Positions 4,391-60,696 of a DNA stretch of 64,000 bases are shown here, one piece after another; positions within the stretch are counted from its first letter, which is position 1, and each line of letters opens with the position of its first letter. A program made the position numbers and the translations under genes. Origin of the DNA: Lachnospiraceae bacterium. Lineage in GTDB: Bacteria > Bacillota > Clostridia > Lachnospirales > Lachnospiraceae. The DNA lies in the NCBI GenBank assembly GCA_017621815.1, contig JAGASK010000043.1, forward strand, positions 1-64,000. Reading direction: 5' to 3'. The notes under the pieces are model-generated. The model was not told the origin of the DNA, made no database searches, and saw nothing but the letters and a program-made list of their open reading frames with translations.

Positions 4391-5668
4391 TTGAAAATGA
4401 AAGAAGAAAAATCAAAAGAATTATTTGAAGAAGCAAAGAAATGGATGCCGGGAGGCGTAAACAGCCCGGTCAGGGCCTATGGCTCCGTAGGGAGGGTTCC
4501 CAGGTTCATTTCTTCTGCAAAAGGCTCTAAAATTGTGGATGCGGACGGAAATGAATATATTGATTACGTGTGTTCTTGGGGACCGGGAATTTTGGGACAT
4601 GCTTATCCTTCGGTGATTGAAGCGGTGCAGAAAGCCTGCAGTGACGGCTTAAGCTTCGGAGCGCCTACTGAAAAGGAAGTGGTGCTGGCAAAGCTGATAC
4701 ATGAACTGATACCTGCCATGGAAATGATGCGCCTTGTAAGCTCCGGCACGGAAGCGGTGATGAGTGCGATTCGTGCAGCAAGAGGCTTTACGGGCAGGGA
4801 TAAAATTATCAAATTTAAAGGCTGTTACCACGGGCACTCTGACGGACTTTTGGTAAAAGCCGGTTCTGCCGCATTGACAACAGCGGTTCCCGACAGTGCG
4901 GGCGTGCCGGCAGATTATACCAGAAACACACTGGTGGCTTACTACAATGACGAAACATCGGTAGAAAAGCTGTTTGAAGCAAATAAAGGACAGATAGCTG
5001 CGGTAGTGATTGAACCGGTGGCTGCCAATATGGGAGTGGTGCTTCCTAAGGAAGGCTTTTTGAGCTTTCTCAGAAAGATAACGGAAGATAACGGTGCACT
5101 GCTTATTTTTGATGAAGTGATTACAGGCTTCCGGCTGGGGACCGGAGGAGCAAGCGGGTATTATGGAATCCGTCCGGATTTAATAACCCTGGGAAAGATT
5201 GTGGGAGGCGGTATGCCAATCGGCGCTTACGGCGGCAGAAGGGAAATTATGGAAATGGTTTCGCCTTTGGGACTGGTTTATCAGGCAGGAACCCTTTCAG
5301 GCAATCCCATTGCCACCACAGCAGGCATCGAAACCCTGACAGCGCTCAAAAATCATCCTGAAATTTATGAAGAGCTGGAACAAAAGGGAAAAAGGCTGGA
5401 AGAAGCCATGAAAGAGACATGGCGGGGAAAAGCCACTGTCAACAGAATCGGTTCCCTGATGAGTGTTTTCTTTACAAATGAGGAAGTGACGGATTACGAA
5501 AGCGCAGTAAAGGCGGACACAAAGCGGTATGCGGATTATTTCAGCTATATGCTGGACAAAGGAATTTATCTTGCCCCTTCCCAGTTTGAAGCAATGTTTA
5601 TATCTGCTGCCCACAGCACCGGGGATATAGAAAGAACCTGCGAGGCTGTTTCAGGATATCATTTTTAA
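4391..5668 (+). CDS. hemL: Glutamate-1-semialdehyde 2,1-aminomutase
   Basis: PLP enzyme converting glutamate-1-semialdehyde to 5-aminolevulinate, the C5 route to tetrapyrroles. The N-terminus has the family signature PGGVNSPVRA. The Schiff-base lysine lies in TLGKIVGGGMPIGAYGG (about K269). Length (425) is normal. The TTG start is five bases after AGAAGG, while the next ATG (4397) is less well spaced. It is the first gene before the sulfur cluster. Because the sulfite reductase there needs siroheme, supply of tetrapyrrole precursor is a plausible link, though no other heme genes are in view. Confidence 0.95.
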   Translation: MKMKEEKSKELFEEAKKWMPGGVNSPVRAYGSVGRVPRFISSAKGSKIVDADGNEYIDYVCSWGPGILGHAYPSVIEAVQKACSDGLSFGAPTEKEVVLAKLIHELIPAMEMMRLVSSGTEAVMSAIRAARGFTGRDKIIKFKGCYHGHSDGLLVKAGSAALTTAVPDSAGVPADYTRNTLVAYYNDETSVEKLFEANKGQIAAVVIEPVAANMGVVLPKEGFLSFLRKITEDNGALLIFDEVITGFRLGTGGASGYYGIRPDLITLGKIVGGGMPIGAYGGRREIMEMVSPLGLVYQAGTLSGNPIATTAGIETLTALKNHPEIYEELEQKGKRLEEAMKETWRGKATVNRIGSLMSVFFTNEEVTDYESAVKADTKRYADYFSYMLDKGIYLAPSQFEAMFISAAHSTGDIERTCEAVSGYHF

Positions 5669-5680
5669 TAAAAATAAATA

Positions 5681-5709
5681 TTGAAATTACAGATACCCTG
5701 TGCTATAAT
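5681..5709 (+). promoter_or_regulatory. Strong promoter of the sulfur-assimilation operon
   Basis: TTGAAA at 5681-5686, a 17-base spacer, and TATAAT at 5704-5709 with a TGC extended -10. The ~75-base leader that follows is AT-rich with repeated ATATAA/GGAAATATAA strings that might bind a regulator. No S-box or T-box motif was seen. Confidence 0.75.
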
Positions 5710-5783
5710 CTCCTTAATTCATATAAAAACGATAGGAAATATAAGAAAACTATAATACATATAAAAGCGCAGGTGTTATAAGG

Positions 5784-7019: not shown

Positions 7020-7064
7020 AAGTGGTCATTAAATAAAAACGGGATAAGACAAAGGAGATATGGT

Positions 7065-7946
7065 ATGGCAGCTACAGTGGATTATGCGGCACTTAAAAAG
7101 GGCGGTTTTATGCGTCAGAAGCAGAAGGGATATTTTTCCCTGAGATTACAGGTAGTGGGAGGAAATCTGACAGCGGAAAATATTAAGACGGTTTCGGAGG
7201 TTGCGGAGAAATACGGACAAGGATATGTACATATGACCTCACGTCAGGGAATTGAAATTCCTTTCATTAAGTTTGAAGACATTGAAGAAGTGAAAGCGGA
7301 GCTGGCAAAGGGGGGAGTAAATCCCGGGGTCTGCGGCCCCAGGGTCAGGACGGTTACGGCATGTCAGGGTGGAGCCATTTGTCCAAGCGGCTGTATTGAT
7401 ACTTATGAACTGGCTAAAGAACTGAATGAGAGATACTTTGGCAGGGAGCTTCCTCATAAGTTTAAGTTCGGCGTAACGGGCTGTCAGAATAACTGTTTGA
7501 AGGCGGAAGAAAATGACCTGGGCATCAAGGGAGGCATGGTGGTTACCTATGATAAGCCAGCCTGTATTAACTGCGGCGTCTGCGTGAAAGCCTGCAGAGA
7601 AGGCGCCCTCACTGCCTCGGAGGACGGTATTTTGCTGGATGCGGAAAAATGCAATAACTGCGGACGGTGTGTGAAATCCTGCCCTGTGGATGCATGGAAG
7701 GGTGAAAGCGGATATATTGTCTCTTTCGGAGGATTATTCGGGAATAAGATATACAAGGGGGAAACGATTGTTCCTATTATTAAGGATAAAGAAACTCTGT
7801 TCAGGGTAGCGGATGCTGCCATTAAGTTTTTTGAAGATAATGCAAAAGCAGGGGAGCGTTTCCGTTTCACCTTGCAGAGAGTGGGAGAAGAAAAATTTGA
7901 ACAGGTTATTAAAGCAGCGGCAGCCGGTGAGGAAAGTGTTTTTTGA
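7065..7946 (+). CDS. Siroheme [4Fe-4S] sulfite reductase subunit with ferredoxin domain
   Basis: Predicted to reduce sulfite to sulfide. Residues C100/C106 (C-x5-C) and C140/C144 (C-x3-C) form the siroheme-[4Fe-4S] ligand pattern of the nitrite/sulfite reductase family. A 2x[4Fe-4S] ferredoxin insert follows with C167, C170, C173, C177 and C196, C199, C202, C206. At 293 residues it is the short single-repeat form, like AsrC or DsrA/B-type proteins. Start ATG is six bases after AAGGAG. No AsrA/AsrB electron-transfer partners are adjacent, so electrons must come from elsewhere. Confidence 0.88.
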   Translation: MAATVDYAALKKGGFMRQKQKGYFSLRLQVVGGNLTAENIKTVSEVAEKYGQGYVHMTSRQGIEIPFIKFEDIEEVKAELAKGGVNPGVCGPRVRTVTACQGGAICPSGCIDTYELAKELNERYFGRELPHKFKFGVTGCQNNCLKAEENDLGIKGGMVVTYDKPACINCGVCVKACREGALTASEDGILLDAEKCNNCGRCVKSCPVDAWKGESGYIVSFGGLFGNKIYKGETIVPIIKDKETLFRVADAAIKFFEDNAKAGERFRFTLQRVGEEKFEQVIKAAAAGEESVF

Positions 7947-50068: not shown

Positions 50069-50746
50069 ATGAATTTAAGAAGAATTTTTTCATGTATTAT
50101 TATACTGATATTCCTTGCAATTATGTGTATAATCGGGTATTTCAATCAAAATAGTGTTTTCACAATGGGAAAGGCAGTCAGTGATCAGGACAGCAAAAAG
50201 ATAGCACTGACCTTTGACGACGGGCCGCACCCTTATTATACAGAGCAGCTTTTAAAGGGGCTAAGGGAGCGTAATGTAAAAGTAACCTTTTTCATTACAG
50301 GGCAAAACGTAGAAGCGTACCCTGAAATTGTGAAGGAAATTTATGAGGACGGACATCTGATCGGTAATCATACCTATAACCATACCCAGCTCACCTCCGG
50401 AAATGCGGAAATCTTTAAGCAGGAGATTGTTAAGACCAATGAAGTGATCAAAGAAGTGACAGGTGAGGACACAATTTACATTCGTCCGCCGTATGGGAGC
50501 TGGGACAAGGAATTTGAAAAGGAACTGAATATGTTTCCGGTTCTCTGGACGATCGATCCCTTTGACTGGTGCAGCAGTGATGTTTCCTGCATCGTGAATG
50601 CCGTCTGCGCGAAAGCTAGTGAAAATGATATTATCCTTATGCATGACCAATACAAAACGACTGTGACAGCGGCACTTGAAATTGTGGATAAGCTGATGGA
50701 GGAGGGCTATGAGTTTGTTACGGTAGACGAGCTGTTGTTTGATTAG
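50069..50746 (+). CDS. Polysaccharide deacetylase (CE4, NodB fold), intact copy
   Basis: 225 residues: N-terminal membrane anchor (~5-25), then a NodB domain. Motif 1 TFDDGPHP (D51-D52), motif 2 HTYNH (~95-99), motif 3 RPPYGSW, motif 4 WTIDPFDW. Removes N-acetyl groups from peptidoglycan or chitin-like polymers on the outer face; the family includes PdaA-like enzymes. A decayed paralogue lies at 60167-60696, on the far side of the defence cluster. Confidence 0.93.
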   Translation: MNLRRIFSCIIILIFLAIMCIIGYFNQNSVFTMGKAVSDQDSKKIALTFDDGPHPYYTEQLLKGLRERNVKVTFFITGQNVEAYPEIVKEIYEDGHLIGNHTYNHTQLTSGNAEIFKQEIVKTNEVIKEVTGEDTIYIRPPYGSWDKEFEKELNMFPVLWTIDPFDWCSSDVSCIVNAVCAKASENDIILMHDQYKTTVTAALEIVDKLMEEGYEFVTVDELLFD

Positions 50747-51114: not shown

Positions 51115-51471
51115 ATGTACACAGTCATACCCACCGAACGGTTTGAAAAGGACGTAAAGTATTATATTAAGAAAAAGGGTTTCACACATATCGGTGCAGA
51201 TATTAAAGTCATAACGGATGAGTTGGAGAGGGGAAATCTGGTGGGAACGGAAATTCCTGGCTTAAAGATACCAACGGACGGACATACTTTTAAGGTGCGG
51301 TCTGCAAACACGGACACCAAGGTGGGACAATCCAATGGTTATCGGATTATTTACTATGCAGTCAGGGATGATGAGGAAGTGTATTTGCTTACTATTTACT
51401 ATAAAAAAGATGATAACCGGATACCGACTAATCAGGAAATCATTGAGCTGGTAGAAACCTATTGTATGTAA
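51115..51471 (+). CDS. RelE/ParE-superfamily toxin
   Basis: 118 residues with the family pattern: IPTERFEKDVKYYIKKKG at the N-terminus, GLKIPTDGHTFKVRSANTD in the middle and a YRIIYYAVRDDEEVYLLTIY beta-strand core ending in KKDD. Type II toxin that probably cleaves ribosome-bound mRNA or inhibits gyrase; which cannot be told. Directly after the antitoxin. Confidence 0.85.
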   Translation: MYTVIPTERFEKDVKYYIKKKGFTHIGADIKVITDELERGNLVGTEIPGLKIPTDGHTFKVRSANTDTKVGQSNGYRIIYYAVRDDEEVYLLTIYYKKDDNRIPTNQEIIELVETYCM

Positions 51472-51539: not shown

Positions 51540-52796
51540 ATGTTCAATAAGACGGTTCGCAAAGTGTACTGCCGGTTGGTTAGTATTAATGATGGGTTTG
51601 ACAGTAAAGATTTTTTCGGGCAGACGGGTGGAATGGATGTAGCTTTCAAGAATTTTATCTATGAGATGTATATCAGAGATTTATCTGAAAAGGTAAAAAG
51701 CGGAGTTACAACCTGTATGAAGCGAGGTGAATATTACGCAGGCTGTATTGTGTATGGCTACCAAAAGTCGTCAGATGGTAAAAGAATGGAAATTGACGAG
51801 GGTGCTGCAGTCACGATACGGCGAATTTTTCAGGAATTGGCAGATGGGAAAGACGCAAAAACTCTGGCGATTGAACTAAATGCAGAGAGAGTGCAAACCA
51901 GACTAACCTACAAGCAGGCAAAGGGGGAGCAACTTAACCGGCATTATAAGGCAGATATATGGAATCGTAACAAGATACATTCCATTATCCATAATCGGGT
52001 ATATCAGGGAGACATGGTGTATCGAAATGCTGTCCGTGCCCAAGCTGGCTGTAAACGGAAGGTAAGACAGCCAGAAGAAAAATGGCTTGTGATATCGGAT
52101 CATCACGAGGCGATTGTCAGCCGGGAAATTTTCAAGAAGGCAAATGACAATATCAGAAAAGGAAAAGTAGCAGAGTATGACCGTTCTGCTGTCCGCCGAG
52201 GGATTGTCTTTTGTGGATGCTGTGGGAATAGGTTAGAACTGAGGAAAACCAAAAGCCCCTATTATCTATGTAAGCGCAGAAATTTGCTGGATAATGTAAA
52301 GTGCAATGAATTGCGAATAGAAAAAGAGCAGATCGAGCGGACTGTATGGACTATCTGGCAGGAACATTGTCGATTGTTTGCGACAGTTTCTCTCTCACAG
52401 TTCTTTGAGAAGCAGCAGGAGAAGTTGAGAAAGCAGGAAAATATACTGATACAGAGATTGGAGCGTTTCCCTGCTGAAAAAATAAATCTGTATGAACAGT
52501 TCCGTTCAGGCATGGTAAAGCAGGATATGTTCTTGAAAGAAAAAGAACAGTTGAGCCAGCAAGAAGTAATGGTACGGAAAGAAATAGAGAAAGTTTCCGA
52601 ACAGATTGATATTCAGAAGAAAAAACAAAAGAACTATTGGAGTGTTGCTGATCTTGTGGAAAGGTATGGAACAAGCGAAGCATTGACAGAAGAATTTATG
52701 AGGGAGATGGTGGAGAAAGTCATAGTATATGAAGATAAGCGGATAGAGATTATTTGGAAGTATCGGGAAGAGTTTGATGAGCTTATAAAGCTATAG
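51540..52796 (+). pseudogene. Large serine recombinase lacking most of its catalytic domain
   Basis: 418 residues starting within the end of the resolvase domain (RLVSINDGFDSKDF). The downstream recombinase domain (~75-170, YGYQKSSDGKRMEID), a zinc ribbon (CGCCGNRLELRKTKSPYYLC) and the coiled-coil tail are present. The catalytic serine and about the first 100 residues of the family are missing, so it should not recombine on its own. Adjacent to a defence cluster, it may be the relic of the element's integrase. The frame has no ribosome site. Confidence 0.75.
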
Positions 52797-52810
52797 AAGT
52801 AAATGGATGA

Positions 52811-52852
52811 TATAAGACGATGCATATTGGATGTGCACCGTCTTATATTTTT
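52811..52852 (+). terminator. Terminator after the recombinase remnant
   Basis: TATAAGACG (52811-52819) with CGTCTTATA (52839-52847), inner TGCA/TGCA pair, then TTTTT. It separates the recombinase from the Gabija genes. Confidence 0.8.
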
Positions 52853-52918
52853 CATGGTAAAGGGTGGATAAATATGGTAATATTACGATAGATAAAAAGC
52901 ATAGTGGAGGATAGCAAT

Positions 52919-54640
52919 ATGTATATAAAGAACATCCATATTGAGAATTTTCGTAATTTTAAATATATTGATATACCTATAAAACAATTTACTATTATAA
53001 TAGGAGAAAATGACTCAGGAAAGTCAAATTTACTGGATGCAATAAGGTTAGTTTTGCATAATAATGGATTGCAATATTTTTCTCGTACATTAGGAATTAC
53101 GGATTTAAATGAAGATGCTTTAGATGAATTTTATGCTTTTTTGAATGAAAATGCATCAATTATTGCTAAATCTTTAGATGATAAGGAGTTTATGAAAGGA
53201 GTCTATGAGAAGATACCGACTGTCAGAATAAGAATAACATTTGATGATGCAAAGAGTGAATATCAAAAGCAGTTACTAAAGGATTGGGTAAATATAGATG
53301 ATGAAGATGAAATATCGTATGATATAGAATATTTATCGGCACCTGTTAAACAAAAAGATTTTATTGAAGAGTGTCTGTTTTTACAGGAAAAAGTAAAAAG
53401 ATTCATGATACCAATAGAAAAATATGAATACAAAATATATTCTGTAAATAATGGAAAGGCAATTAATAAGGATAAAGCTAAAAACTTTAATGTTAGTGTA
53501 ATTGATGCGGATAGAGATACATTTTCGCAGAGCGATAAACAGAATTCATATAGATTAATAAGTTCATTGATTACAAAAAGTATTACGAGCGAAGATAGAG
53601 TTAAAGTAGAAGAATCTTATAATAGTTTTTTTTCAGAGATACAAAACATACAATCCTTTAAACAAATTTTCAATAGAATGAAAGATAGTAGAAAATTTGA
53701 AAATATTCAAGAATATATTGATGAAATGCAGCTTATTCCCAATTTTCCTAACCTAAAAAATATATTTTCTAATATAAATATAGGGATTGGAGATGAGTTT
53801 TTGTATCAAAAGGGATTGGGAACTAGAAATTTAATGTATTTGATTTTACTGTTTAGCTATTTTCAAGTTAATGATAAAATATATAATTTTTTGTGTATAG
53901 AAGAACCAGAAGCTCATTTATGCGTGAATAACTTTAATTTAATTTTGGATTTTATAAAAAAGAGTGTTGAGATACAAAATGATTATATGCAATTACTAAT
54001 AACATCCCATAATCCGAAAGTTATCAATAAGCTTAAGTTAAATAATGTAGTAATTTTAAAAAATGGTAAAGCGATATCTTTACAAGATGTAGATAAACAA
54101 CTTGTTAATTATCTGGCAAAACGTCCTAATTTTGATATTTTAAAATTATTGTTTGCAAAAAAATTGATTTTAGTTGAAGGATCAACAGAGGAAATGTTCA
54201 TAAATACTCTGCTAGATAAGGAAAGTTACATTTTGAATGAAATAGAGGTTATTGCAATTGGGCAAAAAGGGTATAAAACTTTTTTGGACATATGGCTTAA
54301 AATACATAAAAACGATAGCACAAGTTGTATAGGGATAGTAAGAGATTTTGATAATCAAAAAATTGCTAAACAAGAACATAACAAATATGACGAACAAAAT
54401 GAAAATATTTTTGTAAGGACAACGGAAAAGTACACAATGGAAGATGATTTGGTGGCAACTGGAAATAACGAGGAGAGAATAAGAACTCTGTTTAAAATTG
54501 AAGGAGATGTGTCTGATTTTTTAAAAAATAGTAAAGCTGATAATATGAGACTTATATGTGAGGCAATTAGTGAAAACAAAATTGAAATTGAAGTACCAAG
54601 TCATATAGGAGAAATCATAAAATGTGTAATGGAGTACTAA
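52919..54640 (+). CDS. gajA: Gabija protein GajA: OLD-family ATPase with TOPRIM nuclease
   Basis: 573 residues. N-terminal ABC-type ATPase with Walker A GENDSGKSN (~29-37), signature near GLGTRNLMYL and Walker B FLCIEEPEAH. C-terminal TOPRIM nuclease with LVEGSTEEMF (Glu) and IVRDFDN (Asp-x-Asp), then a TTEKYTMEDDLV lysine segment. Size and order match GajA of Gabija. The GajA-GajB complex nicks and degrades phage DNA. ATG at 52919 is nine bases after GGAGG. Base composition is much more AT-rich than the flanks. Confidence 0.88.
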   Translation: MYIKNIHIENFRNFKYIDIPIKQFTIIIGENDSGKSNLLDAIRLVLHNNGLQYFSRTLGITDLNEDALDEFYAFLNENASIIAKSLDDKEFMKGVYEKIPTVRIRITFDDAKSEYQKQLLKDWVNIDDEDEISYDIEYLSAPVKQKDFIEECLFLQEKVKRFMIPIEKYEYKIYSVNNGKAINKDKAKNFNVSVIDADRDTFSQSDKQNSYRLISSLITKSITSEDRVKVEESYNSFFSEIQNIQSFKQIFNRMKDSRKFENIQEYIDEMQLIPNFPNLKNIFSNINIGIGDEFLYQKGLGTRNLMYLILLFSYFQVNDKIYNFLCIEEPEAHLCVNNFNLILDFIKKSVEIQNDYMQLLITSHNPKVINKLKLNNVVILKNGKAISLQDVDKQLVNYLAKRPNFDILKLLFAKKLILVEGSTEEMFINTLLDKESYILNEIEVIAIGQKGYKTFLDIWLKIHKNDSTSCIGIVRDFDNQKIAKQEHNKYDEQNENIFVRTTEKYTMEDDLVATGNNEERIRTLFKIEGDVSDFLKNSKADNMRLICEAISENKIEIEVPSHIGEIIKCVMEY

Positions 54641-56040
54641 GCCAAATTCAGGTTGCGGGAGCCGGGGCTGGAAAAACGTATTCTCTTGCAGAAAAAATTT
54701 TGGATAGATATGAGACAAAGAATAATTTTAAGAACATATATGCGCTAACCTATACAAATTATGCGAAGAAGAATATTATTTCGAGAATTATGGAGATAAA
54801 TAATGGGTATATTCCTAATGATATTAGTATTGAAACAGTGCATAGTTTTTTGTTGAATGAAATAATTTATCCATTTAATAAATTGTATTTTGGAACAACT
54901 TATTATAGGGCTACATCTATTCAATTGTCAGATAAGATAAGCCTGCAAAAATACCAGTTAAATCGTTTGAATCAGAAAGGAATAATACATAATATCCAGG
55001 TTTTTAATAAAGCAAAACAAATGATTGTATGCAGAAAAGGAGAAACAAAGAAACTTTGTGAAAAGAAAAAGTTGATTGTTGATTATCTGGTTTCATCAAT
55101 AGATGCTTTATTTATTGATGAAGCACAAGACTTAGATAATGATGCGTTGAGTTTGTTTGGAGAATTAGGAAAAAATATTTATTTATACATGGTTGGGGAT
55201 TCAAAGCAGGCAATTAAGTATCCAAATGCATTTAATGAGTTTGTAAATAAGGTGCCAAGTAATAATTATGAAATATTGCCAGTAAATACAATTACTAGAA
55301 GAATACCTGAAAGGCATTTAAGAGTGTCTAATTTATTTTGCTCTATAGGGGAACAGCAAACAACTATAAGTAGAGTACTGGGAAAGATTTTTTATGTATA
55401 TTTTACAGATAAAATGTTTGAAAAAGTATATAAATTATATCTGAAACAAGAAGCGTTGATATATATACGACAAGAGAACGATAACTTCTCAACAAAGAAC
55501 GGACGAATCAAATTTGAATTAGAAGAAAGTATTAGACAAAAAATACTGGAAAAAACAAGTCCCGCATATGATTCAGATGCGTATATAAAATCTTTAGAGT
55601 CATGTTTTATTAATATTACCAAGAACAAAGGAGCCAAAGCTGCTATTAACTCATTTACAAAGCGGTTTGATATTACATTGGATAACAATGAATATGCAAG
55701 GTTAATTAATGACTTAAATATCGATGAAAAAAAGAAAAAGTTGAAGTGTATGAGCATTGATAAAGTGAAAGGATTGGAAAGAGATTTATGTATGTTTATC
55801 GTAGATAATACGATGTTGGAGTATTTATTTGGTATTAAGAAAGAGATAAATAAAGAATCAAAAAGGCTATATGTGGCTTTAACAAGGTCAAAACGAGATT
55901 TGATACTGGTAATAGATGAATCTTTGATGACTGATAAAAAGAAGGAGTATATTGATATAAAATTTAAAGAAATGAATATTCCTTACTTAAACAGTGAGTA
56001 CATTGAAAGCATTGCTTCTGATGATAAAGGTAAATTATAA
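54622..56040 (+). CDS. gajB: Gabija protein GajB: UvrD-like helicase
   Basis: 472 residues, SF1A. Walker A GAGAGKTYSLAEK (~13-25), Walker B LFIDEAQDLD (~167), motif III VGDSKQAI, motif VI RLYVALTRSKRDLIL. Overlaps gajA by 19 bases, with AGGAG ten bases upstream. This size and neighbour define the Gabija pair; GajB binds ssDNA ends and activates GajA. AT-rich like gajA. Confidence 0.88.
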   Translation: MCNGVLSQIQVAGAGAGKTYSLAEKILDRYETKNNFKNIYALTYTNYAKKNIISRIMEINNGYIPNDISIETVHSFLLNEIIYPFNKLYFGTTYYRATSIQLSDKISLQKYQLNRLNQKGIIHNIQVFNKAKQMIVCRKGETKKLCEKKKLIVDYLVSSIDALFIDEAQDLDNDALSLFGELGKNIYLYMVGDSKQAIKYPNAFNEFVNKVPSNNYEILPVNTITRRIPERHLRVSNLFCSIGEQQTTISRVLGKIFYVYFTDKMFEKVYKLYLKQEALIYIRQENDNFSTKNGRIKFELEESIRQKILEKTSPAYDSDAYIKSLESCFINITKNKGAKAAINSFTKRFDITLDNNEYARLINDLNIDEKKKKLKCMSIDKVKGLERDLCMFIVDNTMLEYLFGIKKEINKESKRLYVALTRSKRDLILVIDESLMTDKKKEYIDIKFKEMNIPYLNSEYIESIASDDKGKL

Positions 56041-56053
56041 AAGAGGGATCAAG

Positions 56054-59000
56054 ATGATGGCAAATGATATAGAGAAGGTACGTGCACAAGCACATGACGC
56101 TAATGTAGCTAATAAGATAATTGATTCATTAAAAGAATTACAACAAAGCTCAGATGAAAAAAGTCGCTGCAGATGGGTTTGGGAACTTATTCAGAATGCA
56201 AAAGATGTGGCTAATAGTAGTGGAAGTGTGGATGTAAAGATTAGCTTTAATGAGCAACAGAGAATACTCCAATTTGCACATAATGGGAAACCATTTTCAA
56301 TGCAGAATATTGTTTTTTTGATAGAGCAGGTATCGACAAAAGATAGAGACGAAAAAGAGGAAACTAAAAAGAGCACGGGAAAATTTGGTACAGGATTTTT
56401 GACTACACATTTGTTGTCAGAAATAGTGACGATATCAGGTGTTTTACAAGACGAAAATAGTCAATTCAAAAAATTTGAATTAGATATCAACCGTTCCGAA
56501 AAGACGCGGGAAGGAATTATCGGAGGGAATAAAAAGAGTTTTGAACAGCTACAGAATAGTATTGATAATGGGGAAATGATTTTCGATTTCAATGAAGATT
56601 TATTTAATACATCGTTTACATATAGAATAAATGAGAATGGACTTGGTGTTGCAAAAGAGGGATTAGACAATATCTATGATGCACTGCCATATGTTTTTAT
56701 GTTTGTTCCGGAGATTCGATCTGTTTCTGTAGAGGAATATGCATGGAAATTTACAAGAGGAAAACTTTGTTTGACACAAAATAAGAACATAAAAGTACAA
56801 GAAATCATTGTAAGGGAGAATGAAGAAGAGAGTGGTACATATATTGCTGCTATTCAAGGCGCAAATGTAGCGATAGCTGCTGAAGTGGAAAAGCATGGGA
56901 ATCATGTTGCTGTAAAAGAATTTACAAATCAATTGCCAAGAATTTTTTGTGATTTTCCTTTGATTGGAACAGAAGATTTTGCTTTTCCGGCGGTGGTTAA
57001 TAGTTCCCAATTTAATCCGACCGAGCCAAGAAATGGAATTTTCTTAAAAGATGTAGATGAGATTGAGACTAAAGAAAATAAAAAACTTATGATGGAAGCA
57101 GTGCAATTATATGGACAGTTTTTGGAATATGTATCACGAAGGGGATGGGAAAAAATATATAATTTTGTAAAAATTAGAACACAAAGAGAAAAAATATGGC
57201 TAAGTACAGAATGGGTAGAAAAATATATTATAAATGAATGTAAGAATATAATATGTAAAATTCCAATTGTTGATAATAAAATGGGGTCTAGAGTAGCGCT
57301 GTTGGATGAGTGGGGCGAAACGAATATTTGGATTGTTCATGATACTGATGCAGAGGTGCGTGAAGAAATTTGGAAATTAGCTTCAGATATAATGCCTAAT
57401 ATGATGACAGATTATTCAGAACTTAATCAGTGGTATTTTTCATTATGGAAAGGGTGTAATAGATATTCACTACAGAATTTAGTGCTGGATGTACAAGAAT
57501 TGGGGAAAATAGATGTGTTAGAAGAAAAATTATGTATCGAAGGGAAAGTTTGGCTCAATCGATTGTATGCCTTGATTTCTAAAACAAAAGGTGCAGTAGA
57601 TTATATAAAGAATAACAAAATTAGTATTTTCCCCAATCAGAATGGAGTTTTTTGTACATTGGACAAACTGTCAGTTGACGTAGATATTGATGAAATATAT
57701 AAAGATATTTTGAATTTGGTACAAAGTAATTGCAGAAATGGACTTTTAGATAAGGAGATTACGGTATTAGACTGGATGAGTATTCCCCAATGCTCATTAC
57801 AAGATATCTTTGCAAGTATTAAAAATGGATTATCGAGCTATCCTGAACAAAAAGATAATATATATAGTCAAATAGTTGTATTGTATACAAATGATGATGA
57901 AGTAAGTGACTTAGAAAGAAAGCAGACAGAACTTTTAGAATTTGCAGATGTTATATTTCCTAACAAATTACCAAACGATTTAGAAGTCTCTGCTATTTCC
58001 CCAGAACTGCTTGAAGAAGCAATAAAATACTTGTGTATTCAAGTAGTAGATGAAATTAGTAAATATGAGAATTTAGAGAACTTAAATTGGTTATTTAATT
58101 TCAACGAAGAAACAATAGAAAAATGGATTTCTAGATTTATTGAATATATTAATGCAGAAGGATATGGTTTTTTATTAGATAGAAAAGTAAAAACTATCTT
58201 GCCTAATCAAAATGGTAAATTTAAAGCAAAGGAAGAATTGTTTTTAGATAATGGCGATATGGATGAAATATTAAAAGATATTTCAGCAATCGCAGGATAT
58301 GATATAAGAGAGGAACTTTTATTAGGAGATGTGTTTTTAGCACTACCGGATAATCGTACTAAAAGTATTGCAGATATTGCGCCACATGTTGTATCTTATG
58401 TGAAAAAAAATCAAGGATCATCCAAGGTACAGGATAGCAATGTAATGGATACATTCAAAAAACTTTATTATTGGGTAAAGGATAATTCAGAAAAGGCAGA
58501 AAAATATTTTAATGAAATATGTGAAAATATCCATTGGCTCTATAATGATGTGGAAATAGCGGAAAATATGAAAAAGGCTGAGCAGATTGATGCTGTGTTG
58601 GAAAGGTGTCATATTAATGATATAAGTATTCTAGAAAAGGCCTTTTTGAAAATGGCTAACAGTATGCAAGAGGCAGACAGTGTGATTAATTCTGATGAAG
58701 AGGAAAATGAGGAAGAATTGTTGGTTCAATATGGTATTGCTTCAGAAGAGCAGTATGAAAAGGCTTTAGATATGCAGATTTTTAAAGAAAATTTTTTGCA
58801 TACATCATCTCATGATGTTTCAAAATTTGATTTTGCAAATCGTATATTAGAACGGGCTAAGAATAATATTATAGAGTTTTTAGGAAAGAAATCAGAATAT
58901 GATATATCAAATTTAATTGAGGTTGATAAAACTATTTTTATTATTGAAAAAAATAAAGAACAAATATATTTAATAACACGTCCATCAGATTATAGTTATG

Positions 59001-59155
59001 TTGCAATATATTATGATTCTGAGAAAAATGTACTTGATTATAATAAAGATTGGGAGTTGTGGGTTGAAGATGGAAAGAAAGAACCAGAGAAGATAACTTT
59101 TGGGAAGATGTTGAAACTTACAGGAATTAATAAAATACCATTAAAGAAGGTATAG
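56054..59155 (+). CDS. HSP90/sacsin-type GHKL ATPase, ~1033 residues
   Basis: The N-terminal ~150 residues are a GHKL ATPase of the sacsin/HSP90 type: N-box ELIQNAKD (44-51), G1-like FAHNGKPF (74-81, His where Asp is usual) and G2 GKFGTGF (109-115). The remaining ~880 residues carry no named domain and appear helical and beta-mixed. ATG at 56054 follows AGAGGGATC. It starts 13 bases after gajB and 2 bases separate it from the next gene, so all four genes are one transcript. Related large HATPase proteins (Tiamat, as I recall) are phage defence proteins. Confidence 0.75.
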   Translation: MMANDIEKVRAQAHDANVANKIIDSLKELQQSSDEKSRCRWVWELIQNAKDVANSSGSVDVKISFNEQQRILQFAHNGKPFSMQNIVFLIEQVSTKDRDEKEETKKSTGKFGTGFLTTHLLSEIVTISGVLQDENSQFKKFELDINRSEKTREGIIGGNKKSFEQLQNSIDNGEMIFDFNEDLFNTSFTYRINENGLGVAKEGLDNIYDALPYVFMFVPEIRSVSVEEYAWKFTRGKLCLTQNKNIKVQEIIVRENEEESGTYIAAIQGANVAIAAEVEKHGNHVAVKEFTNQLPRIFCDFPLIGTEDFAFPAVVNSSQFNPTEPRNGIFLKDVDEIETKENKKLMMEAVQLYGQFLEYVSRRGWEKIYNFVKIRTQREKIWLSTEWVEKYIINECKNIICKIPIVDNKMGSRVALLDEWGETNIWIVHDTDAEVREEIWKLASDIMPNMMTDYSELNQWYFSLWKGCNRYSLQNLVLDVQELGKIDVLEEKLCIEGKVWLNRLYALISKTKGAVDYIKNNKISIFPNQNGVFCTLDKLSVDVDIDEIYKDILNLVQSNCRNGLLDKEITVLDWMSIPQCSLQDIFASIKNGLSSYPEQKDNIYSQIVVLYTNDDEVSDLERKQTELLEFADVIFPNKLPNDLEVSAISPELLEEAIKYLCIQVVDEISKYENLENLNWLFNFNEETIEKWISRFIEYINAEGYGFLLDRKVKTILPNQNGKFKAKEELFLDNGDMDEILKDISAIAGYDIREELLLGDVFLALPDNRTKSIADIAPHVVSYVKKNQGSSKVQDSNVMDTFKKLYYWVKDNSEKAEKYFNEICENIHWLYNDVEIAENMKKAEQIDAVLERCHINDISILEKAFLKMANSMQEADSVINSDEEENEEELLVQYGIASEEQYEKALDMQIFKENFLHTSSHDVSKFDFANRILERAKNNIIEFLGKKSEYDISNLIEVDKTIFIIEKNKEQIYLITRPSDYSYVAIYYDSEKNVLDYNKDWELWVEDGKKEPEKITFGKMLKLTGINKIPLKKV

Positions 59156-59157
59156 AG

Positions 59158-60060
59158 ATGATAGATGTAGATGAAGCATTGGAAAGAATATCTAATGACG
59201 ATGATGATGTGATTTGTAGAGAATATGAATTGAGACCGCAGATAATTGCAAATTTGATTGAAAACGTGGCTAAAAGAACAGAAAAGCATGGCTATGTTAT
59301 AATTGGTGTCGGTAAAAATGGCAAGAGTTATAACATAAATGGAATTGGTACAAGGATAGATGTAGAGCATCTTGTGAAATTGGCCTTACAACAAGTTATT
59401 CCACAAATTAAGACTGAATATTTAGTGCAAACTTTGGCGGGTAAAAAAATATGTGTTATATGTGTTTACCGGTATGAAAATAATCAAAAGTTAATAAGTG
59501 ATGTACAGGAAAATATAGATAAAGAAGTAGTGTTTAGAGATTTGTTTAATGCTTGTATCAAGTTACAGAAAAATACTACTTTTACTAATGTTTCTGAGGA
59601 TCAGAGGAATGACTTTATCAGGGATATTTTAGAAACAGCCGGATATCAGATAAAAGACCAAACACGGCAAGGAAAGTCTGCTTCTGGTAAAGCGTCTGGA
59701 GAAATAGATATTTTAATTCATGACAAGGGAAAACCAATATCAATTATTGAGGCTTTGAATTTGAATGGATTGATAACAGCGTATTTAGACGAACATATTG
59801 ATAAAATATATAAATACGATACATTAGGAAATGCATTTAATTTTCTGGTTTCATATGTAAAAGTAAAAGAGTTTGGAGAATTTTGGGACAAATATGTTAA
59901 ACATATTAAAAATTATAAATATCCGTACGCACTTGTCGATGTAAATGAAAATATTCAAAGGGAATATGAGTATGCTGATATTAGATATATTATCACCATA
60001 CATAATCGAAATGGAAAAGAAACGATTTTGTATCATATATGTATGAAGATTGTAGAATAA
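59158..60060 (+). CDS. AlbA-like plus PD-(D/E)XK-like nuclease
   Basis: 300 residues. N-terminal ~105 residues look like an AlbA_2/Schlafen DNA-binding domain (KHGYVIIGVGKNGKSYNING, then VEHLVKLALQQVIPQI). The C-terminal ~150 resemble a restriction-endonuclease fold: LETAGYQIKDQTRQG, then GEIDILIHD (E182, D184) and IIEAL (E198), in the D/E-x-(D/E)xE pattern. It begins two bases after the HSP90-type ATPase, suggesting an ATPase-nuclease pair. The fold assignment is by motif only and needs structure comparison. Confidence 0.65.
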   Translation: MIDVDEALERISNDDDDVICREYELRPQIIANLIENVAKRTEKHGYVIIGVGKNGKSYNINGIGTRIDVEHLVKLALQQVIPQIKTEYLVQTLAGKKICVICVYRYENNQKLISDVQENIDKEVVFRDLFNACIKLQKNTTFTNVSEDQRNDFIRDILETAGYQIKDQTRQGKSASGKASGEIDILIHDKGKPISIIEALNLNGLITAYLDEHIDKIYKYDTLGNAFNFLVSYVKVKEFGEFWDKYVKHIKNYKYPYALVDVNENIQREYEYADIRYIITIHNRNGKETILYHICMKIVE

Positions 60061-60166
60061 TGGGTAATTATTGAGGGAAAGACATTAGCATAAGGAAAAA
60101 ATTTAGTTTGTCAACCCCAAAATCAAAATAAAATCAAAAAAATTTGGTCCTTACTTGACATCAGCA

Positions 60167-60696
60167 GATGACGGTCCCCACCCCTATTATACCGAACAGC
60201 TTTTAAAAGGGTTAAAGGAACGGGAGGTAAAGGCAACCTTTTTTATTACCGGGCAAAATGTGGAGGCATACCCGGAAATTGTGAAGGAAATTCATGAGGA
60301 CGGGCATTTAATCGGCAATCATACTTACAGCATATGCAGCTTGGCAGTAAAAATGCGGAGAGCTTTAAGAAGGAAATTATAAAAACCAATGAAGTAATTA
60401 AAGAAGTTACAGGGGAAGATACTATCTATGTCCGTCCGCCATACGGCAGCTGGAATAAAGAATTTGAAAAGGAACTGAATATGTTTCCCGTACTTTGGAC
60501 GATAGACCCTCTGGACTGGTGCAGCAGCGATGTTTCCTGTATTGTAAATACGGTCTGTACTAAGGCAAAGGAAAATGATATTATCCTCATGCATGACCAG
60601 TATAAGACTACCGTAACAGCAGCCCTTAAAATCGTGGATGAGCTGATGGAGGAAGGCTATGAATTTGTTACGGTAGACGAGCTGTTGTTTGACTGA
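60167..60696 (+). pseudogene. Decayed polysaccharide deacetylase paralogue
   Basis: Clearly related to the intact CE4 gene at 50069 (DDGPHPYYTEQLLKGL, RPPYGSW, WTIDPLDW, near-identical C-terminus). It lacks the N-terminal anchor and TFD start. One base is lost near 60330 within the HTYNH motif (now read HTYSICS in the first frame), shifting the frame; the rest continues in the second frame to the normal stop. The two copies differ at many silent sites, so this is not a recent duplication. Confidence 0.88.

Follow-up and report, generated by a model that had tools for sequence, protein, structure and literature searches.

We analysed a stretch of 64,000 nucleotides (nt) from a Lachnospiraceae bacterium (contig JAGASK010000043.1, referred to as the window), in which positions 52919–60060 hold four genes, all on the + strand, that encode in this order GajA, GajB, a TmtA-type ATPase, and a protein with an AlbA domain and a nuclease fold (gene 4). 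The locus is probably best explained as a Gabija system that stands head to tail with a separate TmtA-type two-gene system, which would be a modular immune receptor with an HSP90-type sensor, an AlbA adaptor, and an exchangeable effector. The gajA gene (52919–54640) overlaps gajB (54622–56040) by 19 bases, gajB is separated from the ATPase gene (56054–59155) by 13 bases, and the ATPase gene is separated from gene 4 (59158–60060) by 2 bases. The GC contents of the four genes were 26.5–31.2%, compared with 42.4% over bases 1–47000 of the window. The original prediction had described four tightly packed, AT-rich genes, and the coordinates, order, strand, overlap, and 2-base gap were re-derived as claimed. 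The four genes may be co-transcribed, judged by their spacing alone. Terminator-like sites were not seen within 52700–60300 (0 versus 1.3 expected, which says little), and a promoter scan was uninformative (44 sites versus 48 expected).

Relatives of the ATPase were collected by a pattern-based scan with two short patterns over one genome per species (84,980 species). The scan gave 311 relatives, 80 of which were kept as compared loci (numbered with the prefix L); contigs of the sample of genomes from the order recur in four of them and a plasmid record in one. When the window was compared with the 80 loci using blastn, the nearest relatives gave one long match of 72.5–76% identity that began no more than 60 bases from the ATPase start and stopped either at the stop codon of gene 4 (L027–L030 and L064) or at the end of the stored sequence (L026 and L031). 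No blastn match over gajAB was obtained in these nearest relatives (L026–L031 and L064), and this absence is informative for L026, L027, L028, L031, and L064 only, because no more than 162 bases precede the ATPase gene in L029 and L030. A recombinase is common to L026 and the window (78% identity), and in L026 the place of gajAB, between this recombinase and the ATPase gene, is occupied by a gene with an Mrr-type nuclease domain (7027–7884). The pair without gajAB, for which the original prediction had suggested a search in related genomes, therefore occurs in the five nearest relatives having upstream sequence. Furthermore, 89 other TmtA loci (L026–L107 and seven others, near-copies included) were searched with GajA and GajB profiles. 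None of the 89 loci had gajAB directly upstream of the ATPase gene. The original prediction had offered a composite system or a second, new one. The separate unit was supported; the composite was not, the nearest relatives with upstream sequence having the pair without gajAB, and the novelty of the unit holds only in part, since the ATPase is already catalogued as TmtA (Tiamat).

The tight spacing, the same strand, and the shared low GC content in the window would also suit a partnership with Gabija, in which the ATPase and the AlbA protein assist GajAB, or the two systems stay together because they work better jointly. This explanation is kept as a rival because Gabija-like genes were found in the fetched flanks of 7 of the 89 other loci, although never directly upstream of the ATPase gene, a frequency that also weighs against full independence of the pair. 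PADLOC confirmed a Gabija on the downstream side of the pair in L084 (gap of 35 bases) and L050 (gap of 546 bases), and it identified a GajA about 3.7 kb downstream in L017. A profile made from the Gabija genes of L084, L050, L017, and the window found neighbouring GajA- and GajB-like genes in the ATPase flanks of L032 (1545–5388), L045 (2353–6318), L053 (13166–15605), and L057 (2–2907); these four matches, which are without PADLOC confirmation, may be other OLD-helicase systems. The other 82 loci had no GajA–GajB neighbourhood in the fetched flank, some flanks being short, and five of them gave weak single GajA- or GajB-like matches (L062, L068, L080, L088, and L091). Moreover, the Gabija subfamilies beside the pair differ (PDLC00078, 00093, 00072, and 00080), stand on either side of it, and accompany different effector classes, and the clustering of defence genes alone would yield some such neighbours. 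Because the nearest relatives share the pair only and the Gabija subfamilies differ elsewhere, the composite is not favoured, and we regard a partnership of either kind as very unlikely.

In regards to the first two genes, the identification as Gabija in the original prediction was borne out by PADLOC matches to GajA (PDLC00078, E = 1.1e-191) and GajB (PDLC00120, E = 1.6e-128). GajA is a class 2 OLD-type ATPase–Toprim nuclease (OLD-like_TOPRIM, E = 6.7e-8) with the P-loop GENDSGKS at residue 29 and a complete Toprim site consisting of E420, G451, and D476/D478, which were placed by motif order and not by alignment. The spacing of these residues is close to that of E379/G409/D432/D434 in the published GajA (available text of PMC10781630). 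The adjacent GajB is a UvrD-like SF1 helicase (UvrD-helicase, E = 3.5e-18) with a Walker A motif (GAGAGKT) at residue 13 and a DEXQD box (DEAQD) at residues 166–170. Judged by sequence, gajAB is an ordinary Gabija. No close relatives of this gajA were found at E ≤ 1e-40 among 294 other genomes of the order sample, in plasmids at 1e-30, or in viral contigs. Among 390 other genomes of the class, one gajA of the same subfamily was matched; its contig of 3976 bases is too short to show neighbours.

The ATPase consists of 1033 amino acids (aa) and comprises an HSP90/sacsin-like N-terminal ATPase domain and middle domain, a long helical body, and a conserved C-terminal domain (about residues 895–1033). 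Residues 5–614 matched the PADLOC profile TmtA PDLC03967 (E = 5.4e-136), as did 40 of 40 ATPase homologues scanned. E44, N48, D51, G109, F111, G112, T113, G114, and F115 were invariant across 40 ATPase sequences. The N-terminal part has a GHKL fold with an N box and a glycine-rich lid and is followed by an HSP90-like middle domain; the structure matched Hsp90 and TRAP1, and its N-terminal part matched sacsin SR1. The motif after the N box is H76-N-G, and Hsp90 has an Asp at the position of H76. The C-terminal domain gave no convincing Pfam match in 30 homologues. The size, the TmtA profile, the GHKL residues, and the structure matches agree with the sacsin/HSP90-type ATPase of about 1033 residues that had been proposed.

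Gene 4 encodes a putative adaptor–effector protein of 300 aa, in which a Schlafen/AlbA_2 domain (residues 1–110) precedes a PD-(D/E)XK-fold domain (residues 117–300). The Pfam match to SLFN_AlbA_2 was below the curated cut-off (E = 3.2e-4), and the C-terminal part resembles the C-terminus of one PADLOC LmuA model (E = 6.6e-8). The predicted structure model supports both domains and suggests a BamHI/BglII-like nuclease fold, an assignment based on a VIA second look at the model; a Foldseek search with the same AlbA–nuclease model gave no match at E ≤ 0.001. When the catalytic triad was assigned by eye, D184 and E198 proved conserved in 16 or more of the 17 rows, but the third position is Leu200.

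The ATPase and the AlbA-domain protein are closely linked. An AlbA-domain gene followed the ATPase gene at a distance of −23 to +39 bases in 54 of the 80 loci by profile search, or in 52 of 78 without L029 and L064, which are nearly the same as L028. The linkage profile was built from the partners themselves and was therefore cross-checked with leave-class-out profiles and Pfam. Profiles trained without one effector class recovered all held-out members (18/18, 17/17, 15/15, and 8/8), and as an independent check SLFN_AlbA_2 was found in 57 of 59 partners. The profile matched 66 of 1191 open reading frames (ORFs), of which 61 were adjacent partners. The order sample contained the ATPase in 10 of 392 genomes, and across its 11 ATPase loci (the window included), the AlbA gene was adjacent in 10 and fused in one. 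With both domains present in the predicted model of gene 4 and an AlbA gene adjoining the ATPase gene at this frequency, the expected tie between the ATPase and an AlbA/PD-(D/E)XK-fold partner held. Phage records contained no ATPase at E ≤ 1e-5. Two viral contigs of IMG/VR carry the ATPase (L106 and L107), each with an AlbA–TIR partner; the system may therefore be carried by proviruses. The similarities of the ATPase and of the AlbA domain were correlated across loci (r = 0.81 overall and 0.50 between pairs of different class, the latter equalled in 0 of 1000 within-class permutations), which fits coupling of the two proteins.

The effector halves were compared in 59 partners, taken from 65 downstream genes and that of the window after seven rows were dropped: unrelated genes in L066, L067, L088, and L101, near-copies in L029 and L064, and unread letters in L085. 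In L062, the partner gene was put in place of an ATPase fragment. Classed by short motifs, the partners comprised 18 PD-(D/E)XK, 17 TIR_2, 15 HEPN (a count by motif), 8 CAP12-TIR, and one other, the TIR classes being assigned by motif or Pfam. By Pfam, 17 TIR_2, 7 CAP12 TIR, and 4 HEPN were recognised among 59 C-terminal halves. Another set of the same size (A2) includes L085 and omits L022. At the level of sequence, the AlbA half is constant and the C-terminal half is exchangeable. Modular immune systems, for example cyclic-oligonucleotide-based anti-phage signalling systems (CBASS), typically keep the receptor and exchange the effector.

On a tree of 55 ATPases, calculated with a simple model and leaving out L022, L029, L064, L085, L107, and rows outside the four classes, the effector classes need at least 8 changes, compared with a minimum of 3 and an average of 29.5 for shuffled labels. 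These values indicate that effectors were inherited for some time and then replaced. When L061 was placed in the class other, an earlier tree of 87 rows needed 10 changes between the four classes. Two loci illustrate the replacement at different levels. The ATPase of L048 is nearest to nuclease-linked ATPases and both halves of its gene 4 are nearest to the TIR partner of L015, a pattern such as a swap of the whole of gene 4 would leave. The ATPase of L057 is nearest to CAP12-TIR-linked ATPases and its AlbA half, narrowly, to a CAP12-TIR partner, but its effector half is nearest to the window nuclease, as would be seen after a swap inside gene 4.

The switch and the effector also occur in one chain. 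L021 (5497–10566) encodes a single protein of 1689 aa that contains TmtA (PDLC03972, E = 0), AlbA, and a caspase (Peptidase_C14), and a region like residues 895–1033 of the window ATPase sits directly before its AlbA domain. A NOV_C domain was found at the end of six of six cyanobacterial ATPases longer than 1100 aa (in L097 with 21.6 bits, just under the Pfam cut-off of 22.1). No AlbA gene adjoins any of these six, and three shorter cyanobacterial ATPases that were scanned lacked both NOV_C and an adjoining AlbA gene. This joining of switch and effector in cis speaks for direct coupling where two genes encode them. The exchanged halves belong to types of domain that kill cells in other systems (TIR, HEPN, PD-(D/E)XK, and caspase), and together with the fixed order and tight spacing they would also suit a toxin–antitoxin-like arrangement, in which a toxic gene 4 product is restrained by the HSP90-type ATPase and freed when a phage inhibits or degrades the ATPase. 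An intramolecular switch fits better, because the natural TmtA–AlbA–caspase and TmtA–NOV_C fusions place switch and effector in one chain. By analogy, the toxicity of WonB needed WonA in the ATPase–nuclease pair WonAB, according to the available text of PMC12137116. We therefore judge the toxin–antitoxin-like arrangement unlikely.

For the favoured modular receptor, we infer the following course of events. The ATPase would be both sensor and switch: a phage product or a damaged structure would bind its long body and thereby alter an ATP-driven clamp. The conserved C-terminal domain would hold the AlbA domain of the partner, and movement of the clamp would release, order, or oligomerise the effector half. 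The effector encoded in the window would cut DNA (or RNA), so that phage replication is stopped or the infected cell is killed. This switch would in other bacteria lead to NAD depletion by TIR, RNA cleavage by HEPN, or proteolysis by caspase, and the AlbA domain would serve as a standard plug that joins the switch to the effector. Chances are about even that these proteins represent a widespread class of immune receptors, with an HSP90/sacsin-type ATPase, a Schlafen-type AlbA plug, and interchangeable killers (DNA nuclease, TIR, HEPN RNase, and caspase), of which TmtA with a fused C-terminus would be the cis form.

Several observations weigh against this reading. No partner was found by profile in 19 of the 80 loci (14 cyanobacterial and five others); of the remaining loci without an adjacent AlbA gene, six stop at a contig edge and one is a decayed copy. 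In one of the five non-cyanobacterial loci, L056, Pfam recognised a divergent AlbA gene 99 bases beyond the ATPase gene. Of the three plasmid records that contained the ATPase, one is a fragment; in the other two, both cyanobacterial, no gene follows directly. Plain co-inheritance may explain the correlation between the ATPase and the AlbA domain. Some of the swaps rest on long branches, which meet at L060/L020, and the swap inside gene 4 of L057 depends on a narrow difference in AlbA score (0.51 to a CAP12-TIR partner versus 0.47 to one with a nuclease half). In gene 4, the Lys expected in a PD-(D/E)XK motif is missing from its position (E198-A-L200), so that catalysis by the nuclease half is putative.

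Other defence genes were found near related pairs. Of 143 neighbour proteins, 78 were scanned, and 25 of 125 families were listed; among the matches listed were LmuB, GajA, and type I restriction–modification proteins. In L036 (4454–11986), LmuA, LmuC, and LmuB-type genes are followed by an ATPase–AlbA–nuclease pair on the same strand with short gaps, the LmuB-type gene being directly upstream of the ATPase gene. This arrangement recurs in L039, L040, and L043, whose three Lmu genes have 92–98% identity to those of L036, and LmuB was found for four members in the neighbour scan. We read the Gabija and Lamassu genes near the pairs as repeated stacking of defence cargo, and a preference for Gabija neighbourhoods is possible.

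These neighbours also bear on the function of the pair. The HSP90/sacsin fold would suit a stress-response or proteostasis module, in which a bacterial sacsin-like chaperone acts with a nuclease and not against phages, and we know of no anti-phage test of the ATPase–AlbA pair. Such a role is improbable in view of the defence genes among the neighbours, an exchange of effectors like that in immune systems, the recombinase adjoining the pair in the window and in L026, the presence of its ATPase on two contigs of the viral collection, and the listing of the ATPase family as defence in PADLOC. The immune receptor accordingly remains the preferred explanation of the pair.

To the left of the four genes, a truncated large serine recombinase gene (51540–52796, + strand; Pfam Recombinase, E = 2.7e-20) gave no match to the N-terminal catalytic Resolvase domain at E ≤ 0.01 in Pfam. 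Its region 51580–52777 has 78% nucleotide identity to a gene for a 519-aa recombinase upstream of the pair in L026. A polysaccharide deacetylase gene lies in the left flank (50069–50746, + strand; Polysacc_deac_1, E = 4.5e-38), and a second, 5′-truncated copy lies in the right flank (60167–60696, + strand); the copies form direct repeats of 161 and 300 nt with 83% and 81% identity and a spacing of about 9950. These two copies (81–83% identical) bracket the recombinase remnant and the defence genes, which together look like acquired cargo. A small ORF at 51115–51471, with a short ORF just upstream, appeared by eye to be RelE/YafQ-type toxin-like and gave no Pfam match at E ≤ 0.01.

Further arrangements were observed in the compared loci. 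In L056 (8001–12455), a shortened ATPase gene of the nuclease-linked clade, possibly a decaying copy, is followed 99 bases on by a gene for an AlbA–RecG-C-terminal-like protein, which replaces the partner found elsewhere. Genes for proteins of 480 aa lie upstream of the ATPase gene in L016 (7478–8920), L052 (6465–7907), and L106 (6468–7910). The protein of L016 is by eye CD-NTase-like, whereas the proteins of L052 and L106 share 85% identity and are not similar to that of L016; a profile confirmed none of the three. A COR-domain protein in L112 (697–3435) resembles the window nuclease in its C-terminal half; its gene stands beside TniB, TniQ, and Csy2 genes and is possibly cargo of a CRISPR-associated transposon. 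In L113, an Escherichia coli plasmid, a CAP12-TIR gene (4824–5762) has IS21 genes on one side and, on the other, a KAP NTPase gene that adjoins pifC, and no AlbA domain was found in the front half of this distantly related, PDC-S35-like enterobacterial plasmid protein. An AlbA–CAP12-TIR query gave matches in 1147 plasmid records, 279 of them over at least 80% of the query, and no AlbA–HEPN protein was found in plasmids.

Tiamat (TmtA) was reportedly described by Millman et al. in 2022 as a single-gene system. The same ATPase family is present here, since the window ATPase and all 40 homologues scanned match TmtA PDLC03967, but an AlbA-domain gene abuts the ATPase gene in the window as in the majority of the compared loci. 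The PADLOC matches listed for gene 4 and related proteins bear names other than that of Tiamat. The available text of a 2026 review (PMC12926258) gives the mechanism of Tiamat as unknown. The models of the PADLOC candidate PDC-S35 match 7 of the 59 partners (best E = 2.7e-91), the same number as the Pfam CAP12-TIR carriers, the identity of the seven not being compared row by row, and this candidate seemingly represents just one of the effector versions found in the partner.

Lamassu resembles the window unit in one part: the C-terminus of the LmuA model resembles the nuclease half, and 13 of the 59 partners match LmuA. Lamassu has LmuB and LmuC, whereas the window unit is without either and contains an HSP90-type ATPase as partner. 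The LmuA, LmuC, and LmuB-type genes of L036 are separate and upstream of the pair. No LmuB SMC-like protein was found among the window genes scanned with Pfam and PADLOC, and membership of the window unit in Lamassu was rejected, as neither LmuB nor LmuC was among these genes.

If the proposed receptor is real, an HSP90-type ATPase as receptor, coupled via a Schlafen-type domain, would be an unusual switch. Tiamat would then gain a testable mechanism, the PADLOC entries TmtA and PDC-S35, which are now apart, would be joined, and two animal protein families, sacsin and Schlafen, would be linked to one bacterial defence module. The window system differs from sacsin, as presented in the available text of PMC3710099, by its separate proteins, its AlbA adaptor, and other effector types. 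WonAB is likewise a two-gene defence pair of an ATPase and a PD-(D/E)XK protein and is a functional analogue; in the available text of PMC12137116, WonA is an ABC/OLD-type and not an HSP90-type ATPase, and no AlbA adaptor is described. The features of window gajAB, namely the ATPase site, the Toprim Glu/Gly/DxD residues, and the GajB Walker A motif and DEXQD box, are those given for Gabija in the available text of PMC10781630, in which Gabija does not include the ATPase–AlbA pair, whereas the window locus has both. A pair of this ATPase with an AlbA effector was not described in the full-text literature searched, among the matches listed and by titles and abstract openings, with preprints and most subscription papers outside the search. 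These comparisons indicate that the ATPase family (TmtA/Tiamat) and, seemingly, one effector type (PDC-S35) are already known and that the AlbA-adaptor partner with exchangeable effector halves appears to be new.

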